This document shows, piece by piece, positions 3,356 to 32,238 of a stretch of DNA of 64,000 nt. Source of the stretch: Fidelibacterota bacterium. Its GTDB lineage: Bacteria; Fidelibacterota; Marinisomatia; SCGC-AAA003-L08; D37C17. The translations under genes and the position numbers were made by a program. The DNA is taken from assembly GCA_002707645.1 (NCBI GenBank), contig PANN01000025.1, forward strand, positions 1-64,000. The letters are read 5' to 3'. The notes beneath the pieces are model-generated. The model ran no database searches, had not been told where the DNA came from, and was given only the letters and a program-made list of their open reading frames with translations. How positions within the stretch are numbered: the first letter of the stretch is position 1; every line of letters begins with the position of its first letter.

Positions 3356-3870
3356 GATTCTAAGATTCTGTCAGATATATAAATAAATAATGGGAAAAAT
3401 AATCCCCAAAGAATAGATGTAAATATTATCACAATAATTTTATCAGCACCAAACTTTATAACATCCATGGATTGCATTGAAAAATAAATCAAAGGTGCTG
3501 ATAAGATTCCAAGTACGGAACTTGTTAAATATTTTTTACTAAGCCACTTAAAACTATGTAGTAAAGTTGTTGCAAAACATAACCAAAGGGACACAGACCA
3601 GAATGGAGCTATATTGTATTTAACAAGAATTCCTTTATGTATGATTATATCTAAATTGAGTAAAAGAGTCTCTATAAAAAGGCCTAAAAAAAAAGAAATT
3701 AATAAAAAAACATCTTCTTTTTTATGATTTGTCAATTTTACAAGGTGAATGATAATAAAAATAAATGTAGCTACAGGACCGATATAGTATAACTTTGATA
3801 CAGCACCATAAATAGTTATCCACCAGCATACATAAAAACCTATTACATTGATTATAATACTATTTTTCAT
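3352..3870 (-). CDS. DUF2878-like integral membrane protein
   Basis: Multiple hydrophobic segments; WWITIYGA...FWSVSLWLCFATTL...LGILSAPLIYFS pattern. Confidence 0.5.
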   Translation of the reverse strand: MKNSIIINVIGFYVCWWITIYGAVSKLYYIGPVATFIFIIIHLVKLTNHKKEDVFLLISFFLGLFIETLLLNLDIIIHKGILVKYNIAPFWSVSLWLCFATTLLHSFKWLSKKYLTSSVLGILSAPLIYFSMQSMDVIKFGADKIIVIIFTSILWGLFFPLFIYISDRILES

Positions 3871-4819
3871 TAGATAAATAATCTAATGAATCAATATTAA
3901 ATTCTATCGGTTCTTTGATATCAAACAAGTTAAATGCTTCTGAACCATTGCATGTGTTGCCTTCCAATAACATTGTAAGCTGATCTTTAGCAATTGGGAA
4001 CCAAGAAAATCTATCAAAAAATGAAGCTATAATTTTAATAGGTAGAACCGGAGCAGGGATAAACATTTTATCTTCTTTATCAGAAGCAATAGCAATAGTT
4101 TTTGTAATTTGCTTCCATGTTAATTCTTTACCTCCAAGTGAAAATGTTTTTCCGAATGATTTTTTTTCTTTTAAAGAACTTACAAAACATTTAGCAACAT
4201 CTTCAACATGAACAGGACTCATCTTAAACTTTCCTGCATTAAAAGGCAAAAAACCTTGTTGAAATAAAGGAGCTGGAATAGGTAAAGATAACATATCATT
4301 TTTTAATTGCTTACAGAATTCTTGCTTTCCAAAAGAATTTCCAAATATTAGAGAAGGTTGAAAAATAGTATAGTCTAGCCCCGAGCTTTTCAAATACTCT
4401 TCTGCTCTAAACTTAGTAGATTGGTACCCAGTTCCATCTTCCTTAACTCCATTTGCACTCATTAAAATGAATCTCTTAATATTTAATTTTTTAGCCTGAT
4501 CAACACATTTTTTTAAACCCTCAAAATGTAACTTTTCAAATGTTACTTCATCGTGCACAGGAACAGATAGAGAAGGAGATGATTTAAATTCTCTTATTAT
4601 TCCTATATTATAGATAATAGCTTCTGTGTTCATCATTGTTTGTTCAACAGCTGTGCCATTATCTATATCGCCAGTAACTATATTACATTTCTTGTATTCA
4701 GTAATTTTAGATTCATTTCCAAGCCTAACTAAAACATAAGGAGTTAAATTATTTTTAATTAATTCACTAATTATATAATCTCCAACAAAACCACTTCCTC
4801 CAAAAACTGATACCTTCAT
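3860..4819 (-). CDS. NAD(P)-binding SDR / complex I NDUFA9-like protein
   Basis: MKVSVFGGSGFVGDYIISEL Rossmann motif; RFILMSANGV, YQSTKFRAEEYLKSSGLDYTIFQPSLIFG. Confidence 0.85.
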   Translation of the reverse strand: MKVSVFGGSGFVGDYIISELIKNNLTPYVLVRLGNESKITEYKKCNIVTGDIDNGTAVEQTMMNTEAIIYNIGIIREFKSSPSLSVPVHDEVTFEKLHFEGLKKCVDQAKKLNIKRFILMSANGVKEDGTGYQSTKFRAEEYLKSSGLDYTIFQPSLIFGNSFGKQEFCKQLKNDMLSLPIPAPLFQQGFLPFNAGKFKMSPVHVEDVAKCFVSSLKEKKSFGKTFSLGGKELTWKQITKTIAIASDKEDKMFIPAPVLPIKIIASFFDRFSWFPIAKDQLTMLLEGNTCNGSEAFNLFDIKEPIEFNIDSLDYLSNEK

Positions 4820-4938
4820 TTTCTCTCCTTTAATAAAAAATTAAATAAAACGAACTTAAGCCTGCACGATTTGCGCGTTTATATATACAAAACTTAACAA
4901 TTATTTACCTAGTTTGCAAATAATACAATCACAGAAAA

Positions 4939-5013
4939 GTACACCCGGTAGGATTCGAACCTACAACCTCTTGATCCGTAGTCAAGTGCTCTATCCAATT
5001 GAGCTACGGGTGC
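4939..5013 (-). tRNA. tRNA-Arg (anticodon ACG)
   Basis: Reverse complement GCACCCGTAGCTCAATTGGATAGAGCACTTGACTACGGATCAAGAGGTTGTAGGTTCGAATCCTACCGGGTGTA; 7-bp acceptor stem, D arm, anticodon loop CTACGGA, T arm GTTCGAATCC. Confidence 0.95.
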
Positions 5014-5098
5014 AATTCAATTAAAAATTATAGTTATAATTTAATTAGCATTTCATAACTTATAAAATTAGTTTAATAAAAATTATTGATTATATTAA

Positions 5099-5902
5099 AT
5101 GAAAAATATCAAAAATATTCATTTTATTCATGCAAACGGATATCCACCAGGAGCCTATTCTTCTTTATTTTCTAAAATTAATAAATCATACAAAGTTAAT
5201 TATTTTAATTTATTTTCAGATAAAATAGATATAAAAAACTTAAAAAACTGGGAACAATTCCACAAGAATTTCACTAAAGAACTTTCCTATCAAAGCAAAA
5301 CTATAGGAATAGGACACTCAATTGGTGGAAATTTAATTTTAAGATCTGCAATATCACATCCTGAAAAATTTTCTAAAATAGTATTACTAGATCCTACTTT
5401 GTTTACTCCAAAAATTATATTTTTTTGGAAATTTATACGACTTTTAAGATTAGATGATAGTTTGCACCCCTTATCTAAAAAAACTCTAAATAGAAAAATG
5501 ATTTACGAAGATTATGATTCCATGTACAAATCTTACAGAAAAAAAAGTATCTTCAAGTATATCAATGATAAAAACTTAAACATCTATATAAAATCTATAA
5601 CGAAACAGAATAAAGATAAAACTATCAAAATCACTTTTCCAAAAGAATGGGAATACAAAATATACAAAACAGGAATTGTTGAAGATAATTATATTTGGAA
5701 AAATATTAAGAATATTAACATACCTACACTAATTCTAAGAGCTAATGAATCTAACACTTTTTTTAAATCAGCAGAAAACAAAATAAATAAGATTAAAAAC
5801 AATAATATTAAAATAATATCTATAAATGAATGTTCTCACTTATTCCCAATGGAGATTCCTGAACAGGTATATAAGAAAATAGCAAACTTTCTTAATCAAT
5901 AA
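5099..5902 (+). CDS. alpha/beta hydrolase
   Basis: FIHANGYPPGAY oxyanion region, GHSIGGN nucleophile elbow, SHLFPMEIPEQV terminal His region. Confidence 0.85.
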   Translation: MKNIKNIHFIHANGYPPGAYSSLFSKINKSYKVNYFNLFSDKIDIKNLKNWEQFHKNFTKELSYQSKTIGIGHSIGGNLILRSAISHPEKFSKIVLLDPTLFTPKIIFFWKFIRLLRLDDSLHPLSKKTLNRKMIYEDYDSMYKSYRKKSIFKYINDKNLNIYIKSITKQNKDKTIKITFPKEWEYKIYKTGIVEDNYIWKNIKNINIPTLILRANESNTFFKSAENKINKIKNNNIKIISINECSHLFPMEIPEQVYKKIANFLNQ

Positions 5903-5941
5903 TGGATATATCAAATATATTATTCAAATTGTTTTATATAT

Positions 5942-5968
5942 AAAAAAAGGGGCTAAAAAAGCCCCTTT
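5942..5968 (-). terminator. intrinsic terminator between convergent genes
   Basis: Stem AAAGGGGCT/AGCCCCTTT with A5 loop on + strand; on the minus strand it is followed by a T7 tract, so it mainly ends the minus-strand cluster. Confidence 0.85.
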
Positions 5969-5999
5969 CAAATTATTAAATAATAGTACTAATATAAAA

Positions 6000-6980
6000 T
6001 TAATCTATTTGATACTTATCAAAATCAATTTGAACACGAAGAATTGAATTAATAACCAAAATGACATCTTGGATATTAATAATATCATCATTATTCATAT
6101 CTGCATCAGTTAGCATGCATGAAGAAGTATCCTGCGTAACATTTAGTATTATATTAACTAAACCTACTAAATCCAAAACATCAACCATCATATCATCATT
6201 CAAATCACCAGACATATTTAAACAATCATCACATTCGTCTGCTAACCCATCATTATCAGTATCTACAGTACCAGTACATGATGAGCATAAAGATATCCAA
6301 GCTGCATCTGAACCTTCACAATAGTTATCTTCACTATCACTAAATTCATAATATGTTCCACCAAAGTCTTCGCAACAATAGGACTGATAGGAGTCATTGC
6401 TTGAACTAAAATCTTCAATTAACGAACCATCAATCCTGCATTCACCACAACTTTCTAGCATCTCGTTTATCCTTGATGATATAGACCAGCTACCTGCTGA
6501 GTTCATGGCATCATGAACGCGCATATTATGATCTATCCAAACAGTCATAGGAACATAACCATTACCAAACATATTGTATATACCAGAAGCAGTATCATGA
6601 ACAATTTGAGAATATCCATCATCTGGAGTATTACCCCACTGAGCACATGAATAAGGTTGATTTAAATCAGATAAAGCACCTAAAAATTTAACATAATCAT
6701 TATCTTCAAAATTGTGATGCACTTCACCCGCCGGGCCTGATAGTGCCTGATAACAAGAAGGTCACCATGTAGCTGACATATCTATAAAAATCACATTATA
6801 ATCACCACCATTAAGAGAACCATTCCAATCAGATAAACTCCAATCATCTCCAACTTCATATCCATTTCCAGCATAGCAAGTTTCTTTGACAACGTTTTGA
6901 TCGGAAATAGATACAACATCACCAACATTATAACTTAATAAAAGTGATGAAAATAAAGCTAAAAAAACATATCTAAACAT
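6000..6980 (-). CDS. secreted thioredoxin-like selenoprotein (WUPSC) with C-terminal dockerin-type repeats; in-frame TGA at 6764..6762 read as Sec
   Basis: ORF 6762-6980 ends ...NVIFIDMSATW-TGA and the same frame continues PSCYQALSGPAGEVHHNFEDNDYVKFLGALSDLNQPYSCAQWGN...VWIDH into ORF 6000-6722. Total 981 nt = 327 codons. Dockerin-like GDLNDDMMVDVLDLVGLVNIIL...DADMNNDDIINIQDVILVINSIL. Confidence 0.87.
6719..6746 (-). promoter_or_regulatory. candidate bacterial SECIS hairpin downstream of UGA at 6764..6762
   Basis: Minus strand GCACT-A-TCA-GG-CCC-GGC-GGG-TGA-AGTGC: 11 bp with A and GG bulges, loop GGC; starts after a 15-nt spacer from TGA. Confidence 0.65.
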
Positions 6981-6983
6981 ACT

Positions 6984-7190
6984 TTAACCTTCCTTATTAT
7001 CTTCTTTTGAACAAGATGATTTTTTGCAAGCTGTATTACATGATTTTGCATCTTTATCTTTACTACAACTACTTGTTTTAGAACAAAGTGAAGTTGAACA
7101 ACAACCACCAATGCAATTCATGGTGGAACAAGAACTAAAAAAGGTTCCTAAGCTAAAAACCAAGATAAATGATAAAATATATTTCCTCAT
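6984..7190 (-). CDS. small Cys-rich lipoprotein (9 Cys in 68 aa)
   Basis: MRKYILSFILVFSLGTFFSSC lipobox-like signal followed by MNCIGGCCSTSLCSKTSSCSKDKDAKSCNTACKKSSC. Confidence 0.7.
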   Translation of the reverse strand: MRKYILSFILVFSLGTFFSSCSTMNCIGGCCSTSLCSKTSSCSKDKDAKSCNTACKKSSCSKEDNKEG

Positions 7191-7199
7191 GATACCTCC

Positions 7200-7382
7200 C
7201 TATTTTTTACTACAAGATTTACCTTCAACAACAGCAGTATTTTTACAGCATGAAGTTCCAGAGTCACAACTACTCATACAACATACAGCGCTCATCACAC
7301 CCCAAGTAAATACAGCAACAAAAATAACTTTTAAAGCCAATTCAATCCCATCTTTCCAACAGTTCCAATTATCACACTTCAT
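7200..7382 (-). CDS. small Cys-rich single-TM protein (8 Cys in 60 aa)
   Basis: MKCDNWNCWKDGIELALKVIFVAVFTWGVMSAVCCMSSCDSGTSCCKNTAVVEGKSCSKK; tightly packed with neighbours. Confidence 0.65.
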   Translation of the reverse strand: MKCDNWNCWKDGIELALKVIFVAVFTWGVMSAVCCMSSCDSGTSCCKNTAVVEGKSCSKK

Positions 7383-7401: not shown

Positions 7402-8403
7402 TTAAGATAAAATAATATTAATTAAACTTACAATATCAGTAACATTTACTACTCCATCACTATTAATATCTGCTGCACAAAACTCACTACTTTCTAAAGT
7501 TGAACTTCCTATTATATGATTTACAGCAGAAATAACATCTAAAACATTAATTAAACCATCTCCACTAACATCTCCAGCAGTACATTGATTTGAATCTGTA
7601 TCTATATAATAATAAGAGTTTGCATTGCCCCAGTATGTATTGTTGGGATAGTGAACATAAAATGTATATTTTGCAAAAAACTCATTTTGCTCAAACACTG
7701 GATCTATATCATCATAAGATGTACTTAAATTAAAGGACATAGGTGCAATAAGCATAGAACAGTTTTCATATTCATATACACCGTCACCATCAGAATCACC
7801 ATCAGGATCCAAGCATCTTTGCAAAGTATATTGCAAAACAGCTACGGGAGGAATAAACAAGCTCCAATCAACATTATAACCACCTTCAATAGATGAAATA
7901 ATAAACTCATCATTACTAGGAACATCATTGTACATACACAACCCATTATCAATTGTTGCATTTACATTGTAATAATTTTCACAAGGATTTAAATCTGAGC
8001 ATGTTGTACATTCTGGAAAATATACAGTATTTATATCATCGCTACATGTTATAGCATTTGGATCAGTACAACCTTCTGATTCACTCTCTGTGACTATAAT
8101 TGAACCGACCATACCCAATGCAGCATGATTACCAACACTACATATATAATCATATGTTCCTGCTAGTAAAAATGTATAAGAACCAATAGAACATGGACCA
8201 GAGCAGGGTGAAAAAGAAAACAACTCTGGACCAGAGGTTATCGCAACATCATGATAACCTTGAACATTATTCCATTCAACAGTATCACCAACCTGGATTT
8301 CTAAATTTTCTGGACTGTAGTACATACTTCCGGCATCAATAACGTGAGTAGTAGCATTTAATGTAATAGATAATACTAATGAATATAATATTTTATTTAA
8401 CAC
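7402..8403 (-). CDS. secreted cupredoxin (plastocyanin/azurin-like) domain protein with C-terminal dockerin-type repeats
   Basis: IQVGDTVEWNNVQGYHDV...YDYICSVGNHAALGMVGSIIV (C-x4-H-x4-M type-1 copper ligands); GDVSGDGLINVLDVISAVNHII...ADINSDGVVNVTDIVSLINIIL. Confidence 0.85.
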   Translation of the reverse strand: MLNKILYSLVLSITLNATTHVIDAGSMYYSPENLEIQVGDTVEWNNVQGYHDVAITSGPELFSFSPCSGPCSIGSYTFLLAGTYDYICSVGNHAALGMVGSIIVTESESEGCTDPNAITCSDDINTVYFPECTTCSDLNPCENYYNVNATIDNGLCMYNDVPSNDEFIISSIEGGYNVDWSLFIPPVAVLQYTLQRCLDPDGDSDGDGVYEYENCSMLIAPMSFNLSTSYDDIDPVFEQNEFFAKYTFYVHYPNNTYWGNANSYYYIDTDSNQCTAGDVSGDGLINVLDVISAVNHIIGSSTLESSEFCAADINSDGVVNVTDIVSLINIILS

Positions 8404-8407
8404 AAAA

Positions 8408-9292
8408 CTAATCCTCCAATAATTCTAACATTTCATCTATCTTAAATTTTATTTCAGCATCGCTCATATATCCTACAACTAAATCATAAACCTTAAGCTC
8501 GTGATCAATAAATACTCTTTTTGGAATTTGATTCGATGTAAAAAACTTACTTTCCAAGCCATTCTGATTACCGAAAGTTAATGAATTACCGCCGTTAATC
8601 AAAATGGGTAATTTACTATTACCATGATTTCCCCAAGACTCGCAAGAATGTGGTTGACCAATATCCATTAATACAGATAGAGCAACAAAATTAGGATTAT
8701 TGACGTAATCTTTAATTAAATCATCTGCCTCCGGCAAATGTGTATAACAAGTGGCTCACCAAGTACTTGTAATTTCCATCCAAATTACTTTACCATAAAA
8801 ATCACTCAACTTTACATTATCTACACAATTAGAAGGAAAACATATACCTAGAGGTTCTTCAACATCAGCGCAACTTAATTGTTCCCCAATCTGATAAGGA
8901 TAATTTACTTGAGAACTATTGCACGACGATTCTACATTTGATGGTATTGTTTCGCATATATCGTATATACATAATGAATTGTCTTGCTTATATCCGTCTG
9001 GAATAAATGAATTGTCATTTAAAGCATCTATATCAGAACAAATACCAGGAATCTCTTCACATATCCCATTGCCTCCACATACACCACATGCATCATCTAC
9101 CGCATCACCAAAACAATTATCAAAACAATCTTTATCATGCCCAGCAGTAAAACCTGTGTTTTCTCCAACACACCTTCCACATTCATCTATAAATGCTGAA
9201 CCCATATTAATACCGCTACAATCAGCATTAGCTTCATTCGGTAAATCACATGAGAAGATAAACAAAGTAATTAATAAAAAATATAATTTCAT
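8408..9292 (-). CDS. secreted thioredoxin-like selenoprotein (WUATC) with N-terminal DxxGxCxG repeats; in-frame TGA at 8758..8756 read as Sec
   Basis: ORF 8756-9292 ends ...GKVIWMEITSTW-TGA and the frame continues ATCYTHLPEADDLIKDYV...LMDIGQPHSCESWGN...KRVFIDHELKVYD. Total 885 nt = 295 codons. Confidence 0.87.
8722..8740 (-). promoter_or_regulatory. candidate bacterial SECIS hairpin downstream of UGA at 8758..8756
   Basis: Minus strand CATTTGCC-GGA-GGCAGATG: uninterrupted 8-bp stem (one G-U), loop GGA; 15-nt spacer from TGA. Confidence 0.72.
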
Positions 9293-9295
9293 TAA

Positions 9296-10246
9296 TTAAT
9301 TTAAAATATTATTTATTACTAAAATCACATCTTGAATATTTACTGTTGAATCACTATTGTAATCAGCATCTGATATCTCACAATCTGATGGATTTTGGTT
9401 TACAACTAAAATAATATTTACAAGATTTACTACATCTAATACATCAATAACCAAATCATCATTTAAATCTCCTGCCATATCATTACAATCATCGCAGACA
9501 TCACCTATAGTATCATTATCAGTATCAGACTGATTAGGATTGTAATCATTAGGACAATTATCATCACCAGATAAAATACCATCTAAATCCACATCAGGAT
9601 TATTTTCACATAGAGTGCCGCATTCATCCAGAAGTTGCTGTATGAAATTCTCAACACTTCCTCCACTCCATCCATTGAGATATGAACTACTGCCATCACA
9701 TGCGCTTGTATTTGAGTTACTCGTTAAAGTCCATGGTTTTCCTCTTAAAGTCATTGTATGGTCAATTAAAGCAAAAGTAGGGAATGCGCTATATGAATCA
9801 TGTAATAAATCAAATAAGCTAATACTACTTGCATTCTGGTCAATAACAAGAGGAATTCCATCAACACCTAAATTCTGCCAGCCTAATGAAGAAAGATTTG
9901 AAATGCCACTATCACTTGTTCCGGCATCTTGATAGCCAGTAATAAATTTAACATTATAATCTGAAAATTGTTGTTCAAGCTCATCAACTGATGGTGCTAA
10001 AGAAATACAGGTTCCTCACCAGCTTGCACTCATTTCAACAAAGATTATTGAATAACTACCACCGTTTAAATCACCATTAAAATCTGATAAATATAAATCA
10101 TCACCAGCATTATATTCTTCAAATCCTGCACCTACAGTTAATTGACTATTTTGATGCTCTAGGCTTATTTGATCACCAGCACAATATGTTTGAGAAAAAG
10201 AAAATCCAAAAAATAATAAAAATAAGCCAATACCGATTTTGTTCAT
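9296..10246 (-). CDS. secreted thioredoxin-like selenoprotein (WUGTC) with C-terminal dockerin-type repeats; in-frame TGA at 10018..10016 read as Sec
   Basis: ORF 10016-10246 ends ...SIIFVEMSASW-TGA and the frame continues with 87 stop-free codons GTCISLAPSVDELEQQFSDYNVKFITGYQDAG...SLGWQNLG...FPTFALIDHT into ORF 9296-9754. Total 951 nt = 317 codons. C-term GDLNDDLVIDVLDVVNLVNIIL...VNIQDVILVINNILN. Confidence 0.87.
9978..9998 (-). promoter_or_regulatory. candidate bacterial SECIS hairpin downstream of UGA at 10018..10016
   Basis: Minus strand AGC-AC-CATC-AGTT-GATG-A-GCT; 17-nt spacer from TGA; weakest of the three hairpins. Confidence 0.5.
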
Positions 10247-10326: not shown

Positions 10327-11910
10327 CTAAAAATTTGTTCTTAATGTTACTTTTAACCCGTCATCAAAATCAGGCTGCTGAATACAAGAGCCGTTTGCAC
10401 ACACCATCCCACCCTTTTGAGATCCAACAAATAAAGACAACTGAGTATCTTTAATGTTGACTGTATAATCGAAAGCATAGCAGTCTTCATTGTCTAAATC
10501 CAAATCAGCAAAAAATGTAAAAGACCACTTACCATAGTGACTGTAACTAGGGCTTAAATAAACAAAATTATATTCTTTATAATTAGTTGCATCATATTTA
10601 TTTTGCAGTTCAAAGTAAACTGTGAAAGAATTACCTTTCTTTAATTTATAAACATATTGCATCGGTATTGTTTTTGCCTCAATAGTTTTATCAAAAAGTG
10701 ATTCATAATAATGATCATAACCAATTCGGTAATAAAATTTATCATTTTTTGACCAATTACTAAATTCTATATAATATTGTTTGTAAGGAAGCAAAGTCAT
10801 TATAGAAGTTAAATCGTTATAAATATTAAAATCAAATAAATCCTGATTTTCATAATTTTCTCTATGCTGAAGTGCAAATGCATATGAAATATTAAAAGAT
10901 AAATTATTTTTATAAATTTTATTAATATCGATTTGGTGACCATATTCGCTGCTAAAATCGATAGAATGCAAATTCCTACCTATTAAAACAGAAGAGGGTT
11001 CTTTAAAAACAACAGGAGGATTGGCAAAAACATTATATAACATTGTAGTGTTATAATCTTTGTACTCATAAAGAATATCATAACCTAGAATATTAGTATA
11101 AATTGACATATAGTTTTTATATCCACTTTGTCTTTCAGATAATATCTTGTTATAAAAAACAAAAGACTTCTCCAAATTAAAATCAAACGTACCTAATACA
11201 AAAGAGATTCCAACGTTATGCTCTAAATTATTCATTTCTATATTAGGGTTTTCATTTACTATAAAATCAGTTAAACTACTTAAATGATTTCCTAAATCAT
11301 TTGTAAGCGAAAAAAGGCTCATTAAATCTTTAGAATCATATTTTTGTTTGTATGCCATACTAAGGTAATGCAATTCAAAACTATCATGAAAAAATCGTGT
11401 CCCAATAACTCCAACACTATTTTTTATTGAGATTGAGGGTGAAATATCACCGGGATTAATTCTAGACTTCACATTATTAAATCCAATTGAAGAAAAAATA
11501 TCAAACTTACTATTTAAATTATAATTTATATCTACACCATATAAGCTATTATCATAATCAATATCTTGATTTTGAAATGTGTGCAAAGATAAACCCATAC
11601 CCTGTAATAAATATAAATTTCCAACTGTTAAATCATAGTTATTTCCTGAAAATTGAGCATACATAATATTAATGATATCATCAATATTATTACCATTCTC
11701 CCCAATTAATGGTGGAACGCTATACTCTAACTGAGTAAAAAAGTACAAACCATTATCATGAAATGTATTTATATCAATTGAATTTTCAAAAAAATTGCGA
11801 CTTTCTCCCTTGCCATTTGCAATTTTTAATTCATATGTAATAATTGATTCAGCATTAGAAAATAAAAAAGAAATTAATACTAATAAGAAAAAATTTTTAA
11901 TTTTATACAA
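10327..11910 (-). CDS. DUF6029-like secreted/outer-membrane protein
   Basis: Signal peptide; GNLYLLQGMGLSLHTFQNQDIDYDNSLYGVDINY; beta-rich body ending in NF. Confidence 0.6.
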   Translation of the reverse strand: MYKIKNFFLLVLISFLFSNAESIITYELKIANGKGESRNFFENSIDINTFHDNGLYFFTQLEYSVPPLIGENGNNIDDIINIMYAQFSGNNYDLTVGNLYLLQGMGLSLHTFQNQDIDYDNSLYGVDINYNLNSKFDIFSSIGFNNVKSRINPGDISPSISIKNSVGVIGTRFFHDSFELHYLSMAYKQKYDSKDLMSLFSLTNDLGNHLSSLTDFIVNENPNIEMNNLEHNVGISFVLGTFDFNLEKSFVFYNKILSERQSGYKNYMSIYTNILGYDILYEYKDYNTTMLYNVFANPPVVFKEPSSVLIGRNLHSIDFSSEYGHQIDINKIYKNNLSFNISYAFALQHRENYENQDLFDFNIYNDLTSIMTLLPYKQYYIEFSNWSKNDKFYYRIGYDHYYESLFDKTIEAKTIPMQYVYKLKKGNSFTVYFELQNKYDATNYKEYNFVYLSPSYSHYGKWSFTFFADLDLDNEDCYAFDYTVNIKDTQLSLFVGSQKGGMVCANGSCIQQPDFDDGLKVTLRTNF

Positions 11911-11911
11911 C

Positions 11912-12457
11912 CTACCTACTCGATGGTTTTATAATATTTAGTATATTAATAATACTCGAATCAGTAAGGGTTGTATCTGAAGATATTTCAGAGTACATCA
12001 TAGAAACAATTTCTTGTTCTAGCTTTATCTCATCTCCGGGATTATAACCTGAATGTCTATTAATAATTTCGCCTTTATCATCAACAACTAAAAGATAAGG
12101 ACAAACCTTAGCCCCGACTTTTCTAAAAAATAATGATTTAGGATCTAATAAAACTGGAAAAGAATAGTTCTGAGAATTTACAAAAGGTTTAACTTTATTT
12201 AATGTCCTAGAATTATCAGTATTAACACTTAAAACTTTAAAACCATATTTTGAATATTTTAAATTAAAATCACTTAAATAAACCATTTCTTTTTTACATG
12301 GTTCACAAGCTAAAAACCAAAAATTAATAACAGTATAACTACCATCAATCATCTCATATAAATCTATCTTTTTTTTATCTAAACTCTTCAACTGACCATT
12401 AGGCAAAGATTCTGCATATAAATTAAAACTTATAAGTAATAATATAATTTTAAACAT
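11912..12457 (-). CDS. TlpA/ResA-like thioredoxin-fold protein (Cys form)
   Basis: YTVINFWFLACEPCKKEM active site, VLLDPKSLFFRKVGAKVCPYLLVVDDKGEI cis-Pro region. Confidence 0.88.
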   Translation of the reverse strand: MFKIILLLISFNLYAESLPNGQLKSLDKKKIDLYEMIDGSYTVINFWFLACEPCKKEMVYLSDFNLKYSKYGFKVLSVNTDNSRTLNKVKPFVNSQNYSFPVLLDPKSLFFRKVGAKVCPYLLVVDDKGEIINRHSGYNPGDEIKLEQEIVSMMYSEISSDTTLTDSSIINILNIIKPSSR

Positions 12458-12458
12458 C

Positions 12459-14360
12459 TTAATTATTTCCTAAATATGAACTTAACTCATTTGTCAAATT
12501 GTTGAAATAGAAGAAGTCAACTGAAACATATTGGTATTCAAGATATTCTTTTTCGCTTAATGATATACTGTAACCATTTAACAATGAATCTAACTGAAAA
12601 TTAAATTGAACGGTTGATTTACCTGGAGTAATTGATACCAATGGAGAAAACTGATTTGAAAAGTCAACTTTAATACCTTTACTTAAAATAGAATTAAAAT
12701 CAGAATTATTATTATTCCATGAGTCAATAATTACTTTACTTACATTATCTTCTGAATCAATAAAAAATAAAACAGGAATAATTTGATAATTCATAGAAGA
12801 CAAGTAATTATTTAAATCTTCATCAATATTAAAGTACTCTTTATTGATTTCATATATGACTGTTCCATTTAGGTTTTCTTTTTTTTCATAAGGTATATTA
12901 TTGAACATAGCAATAAACTTATTATTTATAGAATACTCTACAGGAATTGTTATTTCAATCAAATTATCAGATGTTTCCTTTAATATATTTGAAATATTCA
13001 CATCATAAAGATTAGTTTTTATACCGTCTAATATTTCTAATAAGTACGTAGTATTTTCAAATATATCCTCATGATTTTTTACATTTTTTAAAGCCATAGG
13101 TTCTTTAATATTTTTTTTATCATGAATTACTTTTATATTTTTTTTAAAACTAGATTTATTTTCAAAAGCTATAGTGCCTTTACTTTTATCTAAATTAGAG
13201 CAATTATTATTCCCATTACATACACCACAGTCATCTAATTTTGAATTACCCCAACAGATACCTTCACAATCAAGTCCCTTGTCATTCAAAAAATTAGTTT
13301 TACCACCAACGCATACAGAACAATCATTGATGAAAGCCAGTCCACCCCATTCACCATTACAATCTTGAGTACAATCATTAGCACTACTGTAGTCACATTC
13401 ACCGCAATTATCTATAATTGCAAGACCATTTGGATTACCCATACAATCTGAACATGATGAATTATCACCACCACAAACACCGCATGCATCAAACATTGTT
13501 TTTCCATAGCAAACACCATTACAATCAAATCCTAAATTAATATTATTATTAGTATTACCATCGACACAAACATTACATTCATTAAGATAAGCTGTACCAT
13601 TACAATCTCCATTACAATCTAAAACTGCTCCTCCACCACATACTCCAAGACAATCCATCCCAGAAGATTCATTAACTTCATCTGAAATACACATATTACA
13701 CTCATTTAAATATGCATTGCCACCCCAAATTTCTTTACAATCTTTTTTACAATCATTATCTCTATCATAATCACAAATCCCACACTTATCTAATTCTGCA
13801 CTTCCCCAGCATGTTCCCTTACAGTCAATGTTAGCATTTCCATTACATACTCCTTCACAATCTTCAATAGAAGAGCCATTACACTCACCCAGACAATCTA
13901 ACTTTGCTGTTCCACTACATACACCCATACAATCATAATACGGACAAAAAAGAGGTAAAACACTGTCATTCATACAAACACTTAAAGCTCTTTCAATACA
14001 CTCATTATCAGTAGACTTACAGTAATACGATCTAAATGCTTTTTTTTCCCAAGTATTAACATCATAAGCATCAAAAGATATAATGATGTTATCATACGAT
14101 GATAAAAATCTTCCATTAATTAAAACTCCATTATCTAAATCAGAGTTTTTTTCGTAGATCGATGGAATAATTTTAGGGGCGTATGAGATATTCATATAAT
14201 CTAAATCTGAAAAATTATTAATTATATATGATGGTAAAATCTCAGAAAAAGAATCCAACTTATAATCTCTTGAGATATTATCAAATTCCATTAAATATAA
14301 ATTTTCGTAAGAAAACAATGAGCTTAATGTAATTAAGATAGTAAGAAGAAATTTATTCAT
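12459..14360 (-). CDS. secreted Cys-rich protein with tandem DCxGxCxG / DECGVCxG repeats
   Basis: Signal peptide; many copies of DCLGECNGSSIEDCEGVCNGNANIDCKGTC...DACGVCGGDNSSC; C-terminal non-repeat domain. Confidence 0.8.
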   Translation of the reverse strand: MNKFLLTILITLSSLFSYENLYLMEFDNISRDYKLDSFSEILPSYIINNFSDLDYMNISYAPKIIPSIYEKNSDLDNGVLINGRFLSSYDNIIISFDAYDVNTWEKKAFRSYYCKSTDNECIERALSVCMNDSVLPLFCPYYDCMGVCSGTAKLDCLGECNGSSIEDCEGVCNGNANIDCKGTCWGSAELDKCGICDYDRDNDCKKDCKEIWGGNAYLNECNMCISDEVNESSGMDCLGVCGGGAVLDCNGDCNGTAYLNECNVCVDGNTNNNINLGFDCNGVCYGKTMFDACGVCGGDNSSCSDCMGNPNGLAIIDNCGECDYSSANDCTQDCNGEWGGLAFINDCSVCVGGKTNFLNDKGLDCEGICWGNSKLDDCGVCNGNNNCSNLDKSKGTIAFENKSSFKKNIKVIHDKKNIKEPMALKNVKNHEDIFENTTYLLEILDGIKTNLYDVNISNILKETSDNLIEITIPVEYSINNKFIAMFNNIPYEKKENLNGTVIYEINKEYFNIDEDLNNYLSSMNYQIIPVLFFIDSEDNVSKVIIDSWNNNNSDFNSILSKGIKVDFSNQFSPLVSITPGKSTVQFNFQLDSLLNGYSISLSEKEYLEYQYVSVDFFYFNNLTNELSSYLGNN

Positions 14361-14411: not shown

Positions 14412-17400
14412 TTATTTTAATAAAATCACTTTGTTATTAGCAATTATTTGATTGTCAATAGAAATTTGAATAAAATAGATTCCACTTGCTTGATCAACTG
14501 CCATCCAATTGATTTTATTCAAGCCTGACATCATACCTTTGTGTAGGACAGCAATTTCTTGTCCTGCTAAATTATATACTCTAGCCTCTACAAATTTAGA
14601 GCCATCTAATTCTAAATCAAAGTTAACAACTGGATTAAATGGATTTGGATAAGCTGAACTTAGCTTGAAACTATCAGGATTTTCTAAATTATTAAACTCA
14701 ATAGGATTAAATCCATTACCTAAACTCATATCAGGAATAAATGTTATCTCTTGTTCAACATCTAAATAACTATCTGAAATATTATCATATATTTTAAAAG
14801 TTAAATTCGTTCCTTGGTTATTACCATAAACCATTAATGGAAAAATGACATTGCCATCAAGTGGAAAATATACTCCCTCAGCATAACCAGCACATGAAAA
14901 ACCATCAAATGCAACTAAAGTATAGTCTAAATTATCAACTCTAGAATTATCAATATATATTGCAGATGTTATTGTTGCGTTATGCTCATAATCGTGAATA
15001 TTTAAACCAAATTTATCATTTGAAAATTCAGAAGCAGATGATATTGCTCTTGATAGAACTCCTTCATTATATACAAACTCAGTATCATTATTTAATTTAA
15101 TAATATAACCAAGTAATGGATTCATGTTTGTTAAAGTACCAAACCAACCAAATCCTGAATAATAATCTGCATAAGCTGTCTGACTTTTAATAAACTGAGC
15201 ATTTCCTTCAGGAATATTTGATAATGCAACACTCACATCCAGAGACAATTGAGGAGTATATCCTATCCAATTAAACCCAGAACCTAAGTCTAAAACAGAC
15301 TCACTTACATCAACTGGCATACCACCTAGTGTCATTGTATCATCTTGAGTCATATTTAACTTGTACATAGATACATTATTAATATCTGTTAACGTTCCAA
15401 ACCAACCAAAACCTGGGTAATAATCTGCATAAGCTGTCTGATTTTTAATAAATTGAGCACTACCTTCTATAGAAGAAAATACATTATTTAAAGCCATGTC
15501 ATCATTTAACACATTTAAAGATACCCAATTCCAACCACTTGGAATATCCAAAGTAATATCAATACCAATATTTATATTTAAAATTTCTGGATCAACTACT
15601 GAACCTTCAATCATATCACTTGTAAATTCGAAAGACTCAGATAAATCATACATCTGATCTGACTCATAATCATAATATTTAAAAGTAATTTCCTCACCAG
15701 AAGCCTCATTACTATAAATAAGTGTTAAAAACTGATAAGTACCGGAATAAGGACCAAAAGGAACTTCTGATGCTGAAGAAAAACCTCTCAAGTCACCATT
15801 AACAAACGCACCCAGCAAGTCGTTTGGACTTCCAATATTTTCACCATCAAGAAGTACAGCAGCAGTTATTGAACCACTATTTTGATATAAAGATATATCA
15901 TCAAAGTATCCATCACCATTGGAATCCCAAGCTGGACAATTATCGCAATCTAACGGACAATCTAATGCATCACAAACAAATGAACCATCCCAGCATTCTA
16001 CATCTTGACCAGGTCCATTACACAGTCCACAATCATCAATCTCTCCAACACACTCATCAACATCATCACAAATACCATCTTGATCAGCATCAATACCATC
16101 ACCTCCGCAAATACCACACTGATCTAAAATATTACTGTCACAATCACATGAACCATCAGAAATTCCATCACCTCCGCAAACACCACACTCATCTAATACA
16201 TTTCCATCACAATCACATGCACCATCTGGGATATCACAAAGATAAATTTCAGTTACAACTGTAAATAGACCATTAAAAGTACCATTACCTGCAGAAATTT
16301 CATATTCTAATGTATACTCTTGCTGTGAAGATTCATCCCACACTTTAAGAACCATATCATTCCCAGAAACACTTCCGGGAAGAACTGGACCACCAAATAA
16401 AGATAAGTCAACAGATGAAATTGCAGGTATTTCTAATTGACTACCTAACCAAATACCTTCACCAACTAATACTTCTCCAGTGTTACCATTAGAATCAATA
16501 AGACCATTTGAATCAAACAAACCGATTTGATCATTTACATCTAAATTTGAAATTGAATCTTGAAAAATAAACAATGTTGATTCCCCTGTTTCTTCAATTT
16601 GAATTGGGAAATATGGTATATAAGGACATTCACTTAATTCACAAACAGTAGAACCATCCCAACATTGAGATGTACCAGGTCCGTTACATAGACCACAATC
16701 ATCATATTCACCAATACAGTCGTCTTCACTGTCGCATATACCATCTAAATCTGCATCAATATTGCCATCACAGTCACATTCACCAGGTTGAATATACACA
16801 CAAGTTCCATCATCTTCCTGAGCAGCAGGGTCAAAATTACATGCCAAGGAATCAGTACAACCTAATGCTCCAACATTAACTAAGACACCATCAAAAACTG
16901 CAATAACATTTCCAGAAGGACTAGAAATATTAATATTATCAGAAATTCCCGTTAAAAAGGGTGAATAATCACATTGATAAGCTAAGTCAACTAATAAGCC
17001 ACTACTACCAGAAGGAATTACACCTCCATTTGCAGAAATAGTCTGATTGATAATTTCAACATTATAACCATTATCATATATTAAACCCCCAGATGAACCA
17101 CTAAATACAACTAACGAATTATCAATTGTAAATTCAATGTCACTAATTTCTATCGGAGTATCGATTAAAATTTCCATAGAAGTACCTATAACATTCCCAA
17201 ATGATAATGTAACTGTACAACTAGAATTATCACCTTCACATACGCCACACTCATCATTTATAGCATCACCATTTGGAATACCAGCACAATCTGAACAAGA
17301 GGAATTATCACCATCACAAACACCACACTCATCCACCAAAGCAGAGCCACCACATTCACCAGAACAATCTAAAATATTTCCATCACAATCACATTCTCCA

Positions 17401-20012
17401 AAATTAATATCTGAGCACCCACATTCATAAACTGCACCTGGACCATCACAAACACCACATTCATCAAAAAGATTTCCATCACAATCACATGCTCCATCAG
17501 GGATTTCACACAGATAAATTTCGCTAATAACAGAAAATAAACTATTAAAAGTTCCAGAACCATTTAATACATCATAGTCAACGGTGTATTCTACAGACTC
17601 ATCTGCTTTCCATATTTTCAGAACCATGGAGTTGCCATCACTGGTTCCAGGTAATATTGGACCACCAAATTCAGATAAATCAATAGATGAAATAGCAACA
17701 ACTGACAACTGATCACCTGACCATATACCTGAACCTACTAATACTTCCCCGGTATTTCCATCAGAATCAATAATTCCATTTAAATCATACAATCCTAATT
17801 GATCACCTTCATTTAAGCTTGAAATTGAATTTTGAAATATAAATAATGTAGATTCTCCTGTTTCTTCAAGTTGAACATCAAAATAAGAAGGACAATTTGT
17901 TAATCCACAAATATCTGAACCATCCCAACATTGCTGTGTTCCTGGACCATTACATATTCCGCATCCATCATATTCACCAACACAATCATCAACGTCATCA
18001 CACAAACCATCTAGATCTGCATCAACTCCTGAACCTCCACAAACATTACATTCATCTAAAACGTTTCCATCGCAATCACATGTTCCTTCTAATAAATCTA
18101 AGCAACCACATTCATAAATTGCTCCAGGACCATTACAAACTTGACATTCATCATACTCCCCTACACAATCATCTATATCATCACACACACCATCTTGATC
18201 AGCATCAATACCAGAACCTCCACAAACACCACATTCATCAAAAAGGTTTCCATCACAATCACATGTGCCCTCTGGTATATCAGAACAACCACACTCATAA
18301 ACTTGCCCAGGACCACCACAAACTCCGCAATCATCAAAAGTATTTCCATTACAATCACAATCTCCATCTGGAATATCACATAAATAAACTTCACTTACAG
18401 CAGTAAAGAGTCCATTAAATACGCCAGAACCAACTGCAATATCATAGGTCACATTATACTCTATTTCATCAGAACTATCCCACACTTTCAGTGACATAGG
18501 TTGACCAGATACTGCGCCAGGTAATATTGGACCACCAAATTGAGATAAATCAACAGAAGTTATTGCTGCTATTTCTAATTGACTACCTTCCCAAAAACCC
18601 GTTCCAACAAGTACTTCTCCAGTATTGCCTTCAGAATCAATAATACCATTTAAATCAAATAAAGCAATTTGATCATTAACATCTAAATTTGTAATTGTAT
18701 CCTGAAATATGAAAAGAGTTGATTCTCCTGTCTCGTCTAAATCTAATACAAAGTAAGGTTCAATAGGACAATCAGCTAAATCACAAACTTCTGAATCATC
18801 CCAACATACTAGTGCACTTTCACAACCACAATCATAAATAGCTCCAGGACCATTACAAACTTGACATTCATCATAATCACCAACACAATCATCAATATCA
18901 TCACATACACCATCTTGATCTAAGTCAATACCAGAACCTCCACAAACGCCACAATCATCCAAAACACTTCCATCACAATCACAAAATCCTTCAGCAATAT
19001 CAGAACACCCACATTCGTAAACTAAACCTGGACCACCACAAACGCCACAATCATCTAAAATATTTCCATCACAATCACATGCTCCATCAGGAATTTCACA
19101 AAGATAAATCTCGCTGATAACTGTAAACAAGCCATTAAAAGAACCATTCCCACTAGTAGAATCATAAGTCACATCATATAAAACATTTTCAGAATTATCC
19201 CATACTCTTAGAGACATTGAATGACCTGATACAGCTCCAGGTAAAACGGGCCCGCCAAATTGAGATAAATCAACAGCTGTTATTGCTGTAACTTCTAACT
19301 GCTCACCACTCCAAACACCTGAACCAACTAATATTTCACCAGTGTTACCATCACTATCTAATACACCATCTAAATCAAAAATACCTACTTCATCTCCATC
19401 ATTTAAAGTAGTTATAGAATCTTGGAAAATAAATAGCGTTGATTCTCCTGTTTCTTCAATATCAACATTAAAATATAATTCTAAACAAGTTGAACCATCA
19501 CCTCCACATACTCCACACTCATCCTCCAAAGAAAAACCATTACAAACACCAGCACAATCTTCCTCAGCTGTTCCATCGCATACGCCAAGACAATCAAATA
19601 AACCACTTTCGCAATCAGGCGGTTGGTGATAGCTCACATCAAAACCATTCCCAGAAGTATCAGAAAACACAATACCAGTTAAACCGTAGGGTTCACCATT
19701 TAAAGACAAAGAAGTTAATGTTCCACAGCCTGATGGTATAGTTGCACCAGTAAATGAAAATCCTAAAACAGTAGAACCTCCTGCAGATACTGTGAATCCA
19801 GCTGAAGCAGCATCACCACCAGAAGCTCCACTTGCAGTTGTTCCATCAACTTCAAACTGGAAACCAGCAATATCTGTATTTACATTATACCAAACATCAC
19901 CGCCATCTAAAGAAATTGTATTTTGAGGCATATCGCAAGGGTCAGCAATTAAAAAATTGATTGAAAAAAATAATGTCATTAATGAAAAAAATCTTCTCTG
20001 GAAAGTAATCAT
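14412..20012 (-). CDS. 1866-aa secreted repeat protein with four ~130-aa EETGESTLFIFQ modules, DCDGNxxDECGVCGG linkers and a C-terminal T9SS type A sorting domain
   Basis: Signal peptide; four near-identical modules; tail SAYPNPFNPVVNFDLELDGSKFVEARVYNLAGQEIAVL...GIYFIQISIDNQIIANNKVILLK. Confidence 0.9.
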   Translation of the reverse strand: MITFQRRFFSLMTLFFSINFLIADPCDMPQNTISLDGGDVWYNVNTDIAGFQFEVDGTTASGASGGDAASAGFTVSAGGSTVLGFSFTGATIPSGCGTLTSLSLNGEPYGLTGIVFSDTSGNGFDVSYHQPPDCESGLFDCLGVCDGTAEEDCAGVCNGFSLEDECGVCGGDGSTCLELYFNVDIEETGESTLFIFQDSITTLNDGDEVGIFDLDGVLDSDGNTGEILVGSGVWSGEQLEVTAITAVDLSQFGGPVLPGAVSGHSMSLRVWDNSENVLYDVTYDSTSGNGSFNGLFTVISEIYLCEIPDGACDCDGNILDDCGVCGGPGLVYECGCSDIAEGFCDCDGSVLDDCGVCGGSGIDLDQDGVCDDIDDCVGDYDECQVCNGPGAIYDCGCESALVCWDDSEVCDLADCPIEPYFVLDLDETGESTLFIFQDTITNLDVNDQIALFDLNGIIDSEGNTGEVLVGTGFWEGSQLEIAAITSVDLSQFGGPILPGAVSGQPMSLKVWDSSDEIEYNVTYDIAVGSGVFNGLFTAVSEVYLCDIPDGDCDCNGNTFDDCGVCGGPGQVYECGCSDIPEGTCDCDGNLFDECGVCGGSGIDADQDGVCDDIDDCVGEYDECQVCNGPGAIYECGCLDLLEGTCDCDGNVLDECNVCGGSGVDADLDGLCDDVDDCVGEYDGCGICNGPGTQQCWDGSDICGLTNCPSYFDVQLEETGESTLFIFQNSISSLNEGDQLGLYDLNGIIDSDGNTGEVLVGSGIWSGDQLSVVAISSIDLSEFGGPILPGTSDGNSMVLKIWKADESVEYTVDYDVLNGSGTFNSLFSVISEIYLCEIPDGACDCDGNLFDECGVCDGPGAVYECGCSDINFGECDCDGNILDCSGECGGSALVDECGVCDGDNSSCSDCAGIPNGDAINDECGVCEGDNSSCTVTLSFGNVIGTSMEILIDTPIEISDIEFTIDNSLVVFSGSSGGLIYDNGYNVEIINQTISANGGVIPSGSSGLLVDLAYQCDYSPFLTGISDNINISSPSGNVIAVFDGVLVNVGALGCTDSLACNFDPAAQEDDGTCVYIQPGECDCDGNIDADLDGICDSEDDCIGEYDDCGLCNGPGTSQCWDGSTVCELSECPYIPYFPIQIEETGESTLFIFQDSISNLDVNDQIGLFDSNGLIDSNGNTGEVLVGEGIWLGSQLEIPAISSVDLSLFGGPVLPGSVSGNDMVLKVWDESSQQEYTLEYEISAGNGTFNGLFTVVTEIYLCDIPDGACDCDGNVLDECGVCGGDGISDGSCDCDSNILDQCGICGGDGIDADQDGICDDVDECVGEIDDCGLCNGPGQDVECWDGSFVCDALDCPLDCDNCPAWDSNGDGYFDDISLYQNSGSITAAVLLDGENIGSPNDLLGAFVNGDLRGFSSASEVPFGPYSGTYQFLTLIYSNEASGEEITFKYYDYESDQMYDLSESFEFTSDMIEGSVVDPEILNINIGIDITLDIPSGWNWVSLNVLNDDMALNNVFSSIEGSAQFIKNQTAYADYYPGFGWFGTLTDINNVSMYKLNMTQDDTMTLGGMPVDVSESVLDLGSGFNWIGYTPQLSLDVSVALSNIPEGNAQFIKSQTAYADYYSGFGWFGTLTNMNPLLGYIIKLNNDTEFVYNEGVLSRAISSASEFSNDKFGLNIHDYEHNATITSAIYIDNSRVDNLDYTLVAFDGFSCAGYAEGVYFPLDGNVIFPLMVYGNNQGTNLTFKIYDNISDSYLDVEQEITFIPDMSLGNGFNPIEFNNLENPDSFKLSSAYPNPFNPVVNFDLELDGSKFVEARVYNLAGQEIAVLHKGMMSGLNKINWMAVDQASGIYFIQISIDNQIIANNKVILLK
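16230..19475 (-). repeat. four intragenic coding repeats (approx. 19090-19475, 18365-18760, 17500-17888, 16230-16617)
   Basis: Each encodes (I/L)xETGESTLFIFQ(D/N)(S/T)I...GNTGE(V/I)LVG(S/T/E)G...FGGP(V/I)LPG...(F/L)(N/D)GLF...SEIYLC(E/D)IPDG(A/D)CDC(D/N)GN; boundaries approximate. Confidence 0.85.
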
Positions 20013-30901: not shown

Positions 30902-31468
30902 AAATTTTCTTTTCTTTTATATAGTTAATAACTTTTTTATCAAGCATAGGCTCAATATTAGCAAACGATTTATTTAATATATTTCCTCTAATCATATTAG
31001 AGGATATATTAACATTAAAATTCTCAACAAATTTAAGATTGTATTTCAAACTTTTACTCAATTCTATATTTTTTAAAACAGATCTATTAAAACATAAAAT
31101 TTTCACTTTTGATAGTATATAATTAATATTTTTCCAATTTTTTAAATTTAATAACTGATCATTACCTAATATCATTGTTATATCTGATGATTTATATTTT
31201 TTTTCAAATAATCAATTGTTAAATACGTATAATTATTAATTGATGATTTTAATTCAAATTCACAAATATTAATTTTATTATGAGCAAATAAAATACTTAG
31301 CATTTTTTTTCTTTGTTTTGCAGATGCAATTGGATGATTTTTTTTGTGAGGTGATTTTTTATTTGGTACTATAATTAGCTTATCACATTTTTCTAAACAG
31401 TAATTAACTATTGTTTCATGACCGTTGTGTGGAGGATCAAATGTACCGCCAAAAAAAAATATTTTCAT
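30894..31468 (-). pseudogene. nadD: nicotinate-nucleotide adenylyltransferase split by a 1-nt frame break at a poly-A8 run (~31197-31204)
   Basis: N-part MKIFFFGGTFDPPHNGHETIV...SSINNYTYLTIDYLKK; C-part in another frame (K)YKSSDITMILGNDQLLNLKNWKNI; adding one A restores TIDYLKKKYKSSDITMILGND. Confidence 0.85.
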
Positions 31469-32238
31469 TTCAAATAAGAAAGATAATAAGATTCATTTTC
31501 ATTTAATTTCAAAGATTTGACTAGACTTGAAATTTCTTCGAAATTTGAATAATCAAGAAAATTATCTTTATGTTTGTCTAAGTAAATTTTTGCTTTATCG
31601 ATATCCTCTATGCAATATATCAATGAAATATTTGCTAAAGCACTATTAACAAATTCAGTATCATAATAGTCATTAACTATATTCTCATAGTAAATAATGG
31701 CTGCATCTAATTCTTCCAATTTTATATATAATTTAGCTGTATAAAAAATTTTTTTTGCTAGCTTTGTTCTCAAGTCTAATATCATTATTTCAATATCTTC
31801 GATGTAGTCTCTCATGGTCTCTTTTTCAATAAAATATTGCAATTTTTCTATTGCAATATATGTATCTGATTGATCTTTATTGTATTCCAATGAAATATTA
31901 AAATAACACTTACATAACATGAATTGAGATTTTTTTACTAATTCTTCAATAGTATCATTTCTTGTTAAGTATTTATTATATTCAATAATAGACTGGCTGA
32001 AATCATTTAAGTGAAAATAACACTCGCCAATGTAAAACTGAGCAAGAGCAGAATATTCTGATAGAGGATCATTAAACATAATATAATTCAATTCATCAAT
32101 TGCTCTTGAATATTTTTCATCTTTAATGAGATTTTTTACATAATCTATTTTATTACTAGATGGTTCTGTAGATACAATATATGTTCCACAGCTAGTAAAT
32201 AAAAAAAGGAATGATATTAGATATAGTTTTACTACCAT
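31465..32238 (-). CDS. BamD/YfiO-like outer membrane assembly lipoprotein
   Basis: Lipobox LFLFTSCG; TPR-like YSRAIDELNYIMFNDPLSEYSALAQFYIGECYFHLNDFSQSIIEYNKYL. Confidence 0.78.
   Translation of the reverse strand: MVVKLYLISFLFLFTSCGTYIVSTEPSSNKIDYVKNLIKDEKYSRAIDELNYIMFNDPLSEYSALAQFYIGECYFHLNDFSQSIIEYNKYLTRNDTIEELVKKSQFMLCKCYFNISLEYNKDQSDTYIAIEKLQYFIEKETMRDYIEDIEIMILDLRTKLAKKIFYTAKLYIKLEELDAAIIYYENIVNDYYDTEFVNSALANISLIYCIEDIDKAKIYLDKHKDNFLDYSNFEEISSLVKSLKLNENESYYLSYLK

Follow-up and report, generated by a model that had tools for sequence, protein, structure and literature searches.

A cysteine-tailed single-helix protein family of Candidatus Neomarinimicrobiota with a putative role in soft-metal buffering

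Here we report that two small cysteine-rich open reading frames on the minus strand of the window, the whole 64,000-nucleotide stretch of Fidelibacterota DNA that was analysed, are real genes. The 60-aa protein encoded by one of them belongs to a family that appears to be uncatalogued in the libraries searched and, at the search sensitivity used, appears restricted to Candidatus Neomarinimicrobiota (SAR406). Its short members combine a conserved helix with a variable tail that is rich in cysteines spaced as CC and CxxxC and entirely lacks CxC and CxxC. Our tentative reading, which we hold at somewhat short of an even chance, is that the 60-aa protein buffers a soft metal, most likely Cu(I), through thiolates tethered to the membrane.

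Two small genes within a run of selenoprotein genes

The 60-aa single-helix protein is encoded at 7200..7382 (-) and contains 8 Cys, located before the helix (C3, C8) and from the helix end to the C-terminus (C34, C35, C39, C44, C45, C57). The adjacent 68-aa lipoprotein-like ORF, with 9 Cys and a Ser/Lys/Cys tail, is located at 6984..7190 (-). An earlier note on this DNA had placed a 68-aa and a 60-aa Cys-rich ORF at 6984-7382, which was confirmed, and the motifs it listed (GGCCS, AVCCMSSC and TSCC) were all found in the pair. With a Cys content of 13%, the two rank highest among the 155 window ORFs of at least 45 aa, and no ORF of 55-80 aa with at least 8 Cys occurred in 60 simulated second-order Markov windows. 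Purifying selection was detected within the genus for both ORFs, with omega values of 0.08-0.27 for the 60-aa ORF (window versus G008, 0.11; versus G007, 0.12; versus G009, 0.08) and 0.20-0.25 for the 68-aa ORF; the near-identical G007/G008 pair, having too few changes, was set aside in this reading. Against the genomes of another genus, g4, the dN/dS of the 60-aa ORF was higher, up to 0.70. AGGAG-like Shine-Dalgarno stretches precede both ORFs (GGAG for the 60-aa and GGGAGG for the 68-aa ORF), and a similar stretch is found ahead of nearly every 60-aa homologue. Low dN/dS, these Shine-Dalgarno sites and tight operon spacing uphold the earlier view of both ORFs as genuine genes. That they are spurious or untranslated, or precursors of secreted or modified peptides, is scarcely credible: they are small and of low complexity, but set against this are the same selection and Shine-Dalgarno evidence, operon gaps of 3-19 nt, the phylum-wide conservation of the 60-aa protein and, for the precursor variant, the lack of recognisable peptide-modifying enzymes among the neighbour genes examined.

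The gene order on the minus strand is TlpA-like, DUF6029, SASWUGTC, TSTWUATC, cupredoxin, 60-aa, 68-aa and SATWUPSC, with intergenic gaps of 3-19 nt from the SASWUGTC gene onward. The first of these genes encodes a TlpA/redoxin-type thioredoxin in the Cys form, CEPC (11912..12457 (-); Redoxin 5.4e-22), and the second a DUF6029 protein of the same gene run (10327..11910 (-); PF19494 3e-18). They are followed by the UxxC protein SASWUGTC (9296..10246 (-); NF045500 1e-17, Thioredoxin 6e-7), the C-terminal part of which resembles the Omp28-related selenoprotein model below cutoff, and by the weakly TlpA/ResA-like UxxC protein TSTWUATC (8408..9292 (-)). The small genes are flanked as the earlier note had claimed: on the upstream side, 19 nt from the 60-aa ORF, by a cupredoxin of the plastocyanin/azurin type with a C-terminal dockerin-type repeat (7402..8403 (-); Pfam Copper-bind 3.4e-9, Dockerin_1 8.1e-10), and on the downstream side by the thioredoxin-like selenoprotein SATWUPSC, an ORF with an in-frame TGA read through and a C-terminal dockerin-type repeat (6000..6980 (-); Dockerin_1), which follows the 68-aa ORF after 3 nt. 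An intrinsic terminator just past this last selenoprotein gene, consisting of a 10-pair stem and then a T-rich tail (5945..5969 (-)), probably marks the operon end. The selenoprotein calls stand because the genome carries selB and tRNA-Sec and the in-frame TGA is retained in most relatives.

Three selenoproteins (9296-10246, 8408-9292 and 6000-6980) share this operon, and dockerin-type C-terminal repeats occur in two of the three UxxC proteins. Their relatives are widespread in the taxonomic family, and some homologues without a TGA stop may be Cys forms. Directly upstream of the operon, 12459-14360 and 14412-20012 encode secreted repeat proteins with 41 and 108 Cys (repeat unit, e.g., DCxGxCxGxAxxDxCGVCxG), possibly another thiol- or disulfide-rich surface component.

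The view of both genes as small, Cys-rich and membrane-associated is supported; the check on export of their products covered part of that claim. The 68-aa protein has a lipoprotein-type signal (MRKYILSFILVFSLGTFFSSC) whose lipobox, FFSSC, has an unusual Phe at -3 against the strict consensus [LVI][ASTVI][GAS]C. FSSC is retained in all 4 genomes of the genus, and F-x-S-C recurs in the window at 31408-32238, where a further lipoprotein-like ORF reads LFTSC. The 60-aa protein is without a canonical lipobox, and the charges flanking its helix are nearly balanced. AlphaFold2 returned a helix (residues 6-38) followed by a low-confidence tail (pLDDT 63); the protein is predicted to be membrane-anchored by this helix, and the tail is probably disordered. 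For the 60-aa protein we also weighed a cleaved signal peptide, given the conserved V-x-S that follows its hydrophobic stretch, and discarded the idea in view of the long acidic N-terminus, the N for S in G005 and the missing site in longer relatives.

Family distribution, longer relatives and cysteine spacing

Searches with the 60-aa protein at E<=1 gave homologues in 21 of the order's 41 genomes, with strong matches in 17; the protein family was present in 16 of the 23 genomes of its own taxonomic family and extended to further families of the phylum. A conserved-peptide scan of the genomes of 84,980 species gave 15 confirmed loci, 13 of which bore the name Candidatus Neomarinimicrobiota or Marinimicrobia and 2 were named only as TMED MAGs, and none of 288 pattern matches in viral contigs was confirmed. 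Pfam and NCBIfam scans of the 60-aa, 68-aa and other scanned family proteins returned sub-threshold chance matches only (for the 68-aa ORF, no Pfam match and one NCBIfam match), a PDB profile search for the family gave no match, and a literature search for it in SAR406/Marinimicrobia found no paper. Homologues of the 68-aa protein were found at E<0.001 only in the 3 other genomes of the same genus.

As used here, the family is defined by the N-terminal module K[DE]KLxLxWK[FY]LxLAV, matched by profiles of both the short and the long members, and the conserved N-terminal helix of the 60-aa family reads KDKLNLLWKFLFLAVFTYGVxSxTCC. The tails carry 3-13 further Cys, and their length and order vary, in places through internal repeats; every short member retains a Cys-rich tail while tail length and order shift, and exact Cys positions vary outside the TCC..C cluster and the final KPC. 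Against the short profile, in which it is included, the window protein scores 6.7e-24. With the profile of the long proteins, described below, it and the other proteins of its genus (g1) did not attain E<=0.001; the window protein is tied to the family through direct matches to relatives G012, G013 and G015-G017.

The cysteine spacing of the tails was compared with composition-preserving shuffles, which ignore common ancestry and internal repeats, so that exact probabilities are not meaningful, and which were run after the pattern had been noticed: in 19 short tails, C-x1-C and C-x2-C were each observed 0 times against about 25 expected, C-x3-C 43 times against 24 and CC 37 times against 26. 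The 68-aa tails (n=4) likewise contained 0 CxC against 5.7 expected and 0 CxxC against 5.5. The total absence of CxC and CxxC in such variable tails is notable, and it argues against metallothionein, zinc-ribbon and thioredoxin-type motifs. The CC and CxxxC groups recall the Cu(I) ligand arrangements of Cox17 and Sco, a resemblance that serves as a lead only.

A phylum-wide profile search recovered longer proteins, about 105-165 aa in length, that share the N-terminal module and continue with a linker often rich in His, Met or Cys and then with a segment GDTTVxVxVNGExVD with a low-confidence beta-hairpin prediction; the AlphaFold2 model of a long relative was poor (pLDDT 48). Clusters of His, Met and Cys occupy the same post-helix position in many, not all, long members, e.g., CRAGHCDRSTHVC..MAFMGKGCMGMGHG. 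A profile built from the long proteins only recovers short Cys-tailed proteins of other genera at E values of 1e-7 to 1e-12, and L142, whose genome encodes a short copy as well, combines a Cys-rich linker with the hairpin. The long relatives L136, L139 and L141 have few or no Cys or His, so that metal binding need not have been the original role of the module. Among the gene neighbours of the long relatives, none stood out as a copper or redox partner. Four of these relatives (L079, L128, L129 and L140) are located downstream of a gene from one recurring family of large proteins (PEKRPFFNxGxDLxDTWINxIYTRSINNPIA), and a functional link between the two is possible.

Possible functions

The 60-aa protein would be a single-pass protein of the cytoplasmic membrane, in which the conserved helix anchors a short disordered tail that could lie on either side of the membrane. 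With their CC and CxxxC groups, the tail cysteines would be ligands of a soft metal, for which Cu(I) is the likeliest candidate, and the protein may act as a tethered metal-thiolate buffer or hand-over site. The genus-specific 68-aa lipoprotein would contribute a comparable, lipid-anchored thiolate tail. Both small genes are presumed to be co-transcribed with those of the cupredoxin and the extracytoplasmic thioredoxin-like selenoproteins, which could receive metal or keep thiols reduced. Metal binding, as the earlier note had suggested, is plausible and the best-supported reading, being predicted from sequence features: it is favoured by the retention of the Cys tail, the spacing rule, the His, Met and Cys residues of long relatives and the cupredoxin in g1 and g4, and it is weakened by gene contexts outside these two genera that are not copper-related.

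The search for homologues next to UxxC proteins that the earlier note had proposed yielded conserved homologues, with adjacency limited to g1 and g4. In g4, the 68-aa gene is absent and the 60-aa gene directly precedes a UxxC selenoprotein gene; the two ORFs, described as a pair, are hence no obligatory unit. The 60-aa gene adjoins a UxxC gene or a cupredoxin gene in g1 and g4 only, and adjacency to UxxC is confined to these among the roughly 21 genomes with the 60-aa family. In g6 and g9, the gene upstream of the homologue encodes a secreted sorbosone-dehydrogenase-like protein (named from sequence), and in several genomes the homologue is without a close co-directional neighbour. Since neighbours differ outside g1 and g4, and UxxC relatives are present elsewhere in many genomes whose 60-aa gene stands apart, a dedicated role as selenoprotein partner, one of the earlier suggestions, is unsupported. 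SelB scored over its cut-off in 31 of the 41 order genomes and did not separate carriers from non-carriers of the 60-aa protein. On contig L045 of G012, the cupredoxin, 60-aa and UxxC genes occur twice (32-2890 and 3831-6686) with apparently identical protein ends; this double copy near the contig start reflects either tandem duplication in the recent past or an error of assembly.

The main rivals to metal buffering place the function in thiol chemistry or in the helix. The tails could serve as a thiol/disulfide substrate or electron relay, linking the membrane by electron transfer with the TlpA/UxxC selenothioredoxins of the operon. The many tail Cys, the genus operon shared with a TlpA-like and three UxxC proteins, and the g4 gene directly before a UxxC gene all fit such a relay, but in most genera the 60-aa gene is far from the UxxC genes present elsewhere in the genome, and Cys number and position drift freely. 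The tails also contain no CxxC, and we consider the redox role proposed earlier unlikely. Transfer of sulfur rather than electrons, with the protein carrying sulfur or persulfide in cooperation with rhodanese-type sulfurtransferases, is suggested by genus g7, in which a small rhodanese-like gene, named from sequence, ends 9-11 nt before the homologue (G016 and G017, L048 and L049). This arrangement is limited to a single genus, the other neighbours are secreted proteins and the CxxC sulfur-relay motif is absent, making a carrier role very improbable.

A different emphasis is given by the helix, the most conserved part of the protein, which suggests that the main function is the helix partner. 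The protein would then be a small accessory subunit of a membrane complex, with the helix as its working part and the Cys tail merely stabilising or anchoring. Conservation is much stronger in the helix residues (WKFLFLAVFTYGV) than in the tail, and across the phylum this module is joined to tails of very different kinds; the short members in all genera, however, keep a Cys-rich tail that strictly avoids CxC and CxxC, which is more than a passive tail needs. We give this explanation a minor but appreciable chance.

For the metal-buffering reading, the Cu+-exporting ATPase provides a hint. TIGR01511 was not found in 15 of the 17 order genomes that carry the short protein, compared with 8 of the 24 that lack it, and at the phylum level the ATPase was present in 3 of 21 genomes with the short protein against 98 of 224 others; these counts are confounded by ancestry and genome streamlining, many genomes are incomplete, and the association loses significance when only the family is considered (p=0.21). 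The inverse association is not evidence of replacement. By inspection, the presence of SCO1/SenC did not obviously track the family. The bolder proposal, that a phylum-specific, membrane-tethered copper-thiolate system with an unusual ligand code of CC and CxxxC only takes the place of the missing Cu+-exporting ATPase in streamlined SAR406 bacteria, while also supplying or protecting the co-encoded cupredoxin and selenothioredoxins, seems to us improbable.

Comparison with known systems

The family adds an uncatalogued group of small proteins, without Pfam, NCBIfam or PDB match, to an abundant uncultured ocean phylum, and its ligand-spacing rule is clear and testable. If the metal reading is true, it would bear on copper handling in streamlined marine bacteria without a recognisable Cu+-ATPase and would provide a membrane-anchored counterpart of metallothioneins. 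Bacterial metallothioneins (SmtA/BmtA, PF02069; MymT) are likewise small and Cys-rich, with few tail aromatics and a presumed metal-thiolate role, but they are soluble and based on CxC and CxxC, whereas the 60-aa family has a conserved membrane helix and lacks both motifs; PF02069 was not listed in the Pfam scans of the 60-aa, 68-aa and other family proteins. Cox17, with CC in a KPCC context, and Sco, with CxxxC, use as Cu(I) ligands cysteine spacings that are also found in the tails. No Cox17/CHCH model was listed at E<=1 to 5 in the Pfam scans of family proteins, and the 60-aa protein differs in having neither a CHCH nor a thioredoxin fold, with a prokaryotic single-helix anchor and a low-confidence tail. 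Proteins of the GolB, CopK and CusF type are also small soft-metal binders, extracytoplasmic or cytosolic, but they are folded soluble domains with defined sites, set apart here by description, no sequence match having been found. The Omp28-related and TlpA-like UxxC selenoproteins share the g1 operon and extracytoplasmic thiol chemistry with the small proteins; they are neighbours, not relatives, and the linkage is not conserved beyond g1 and g4.
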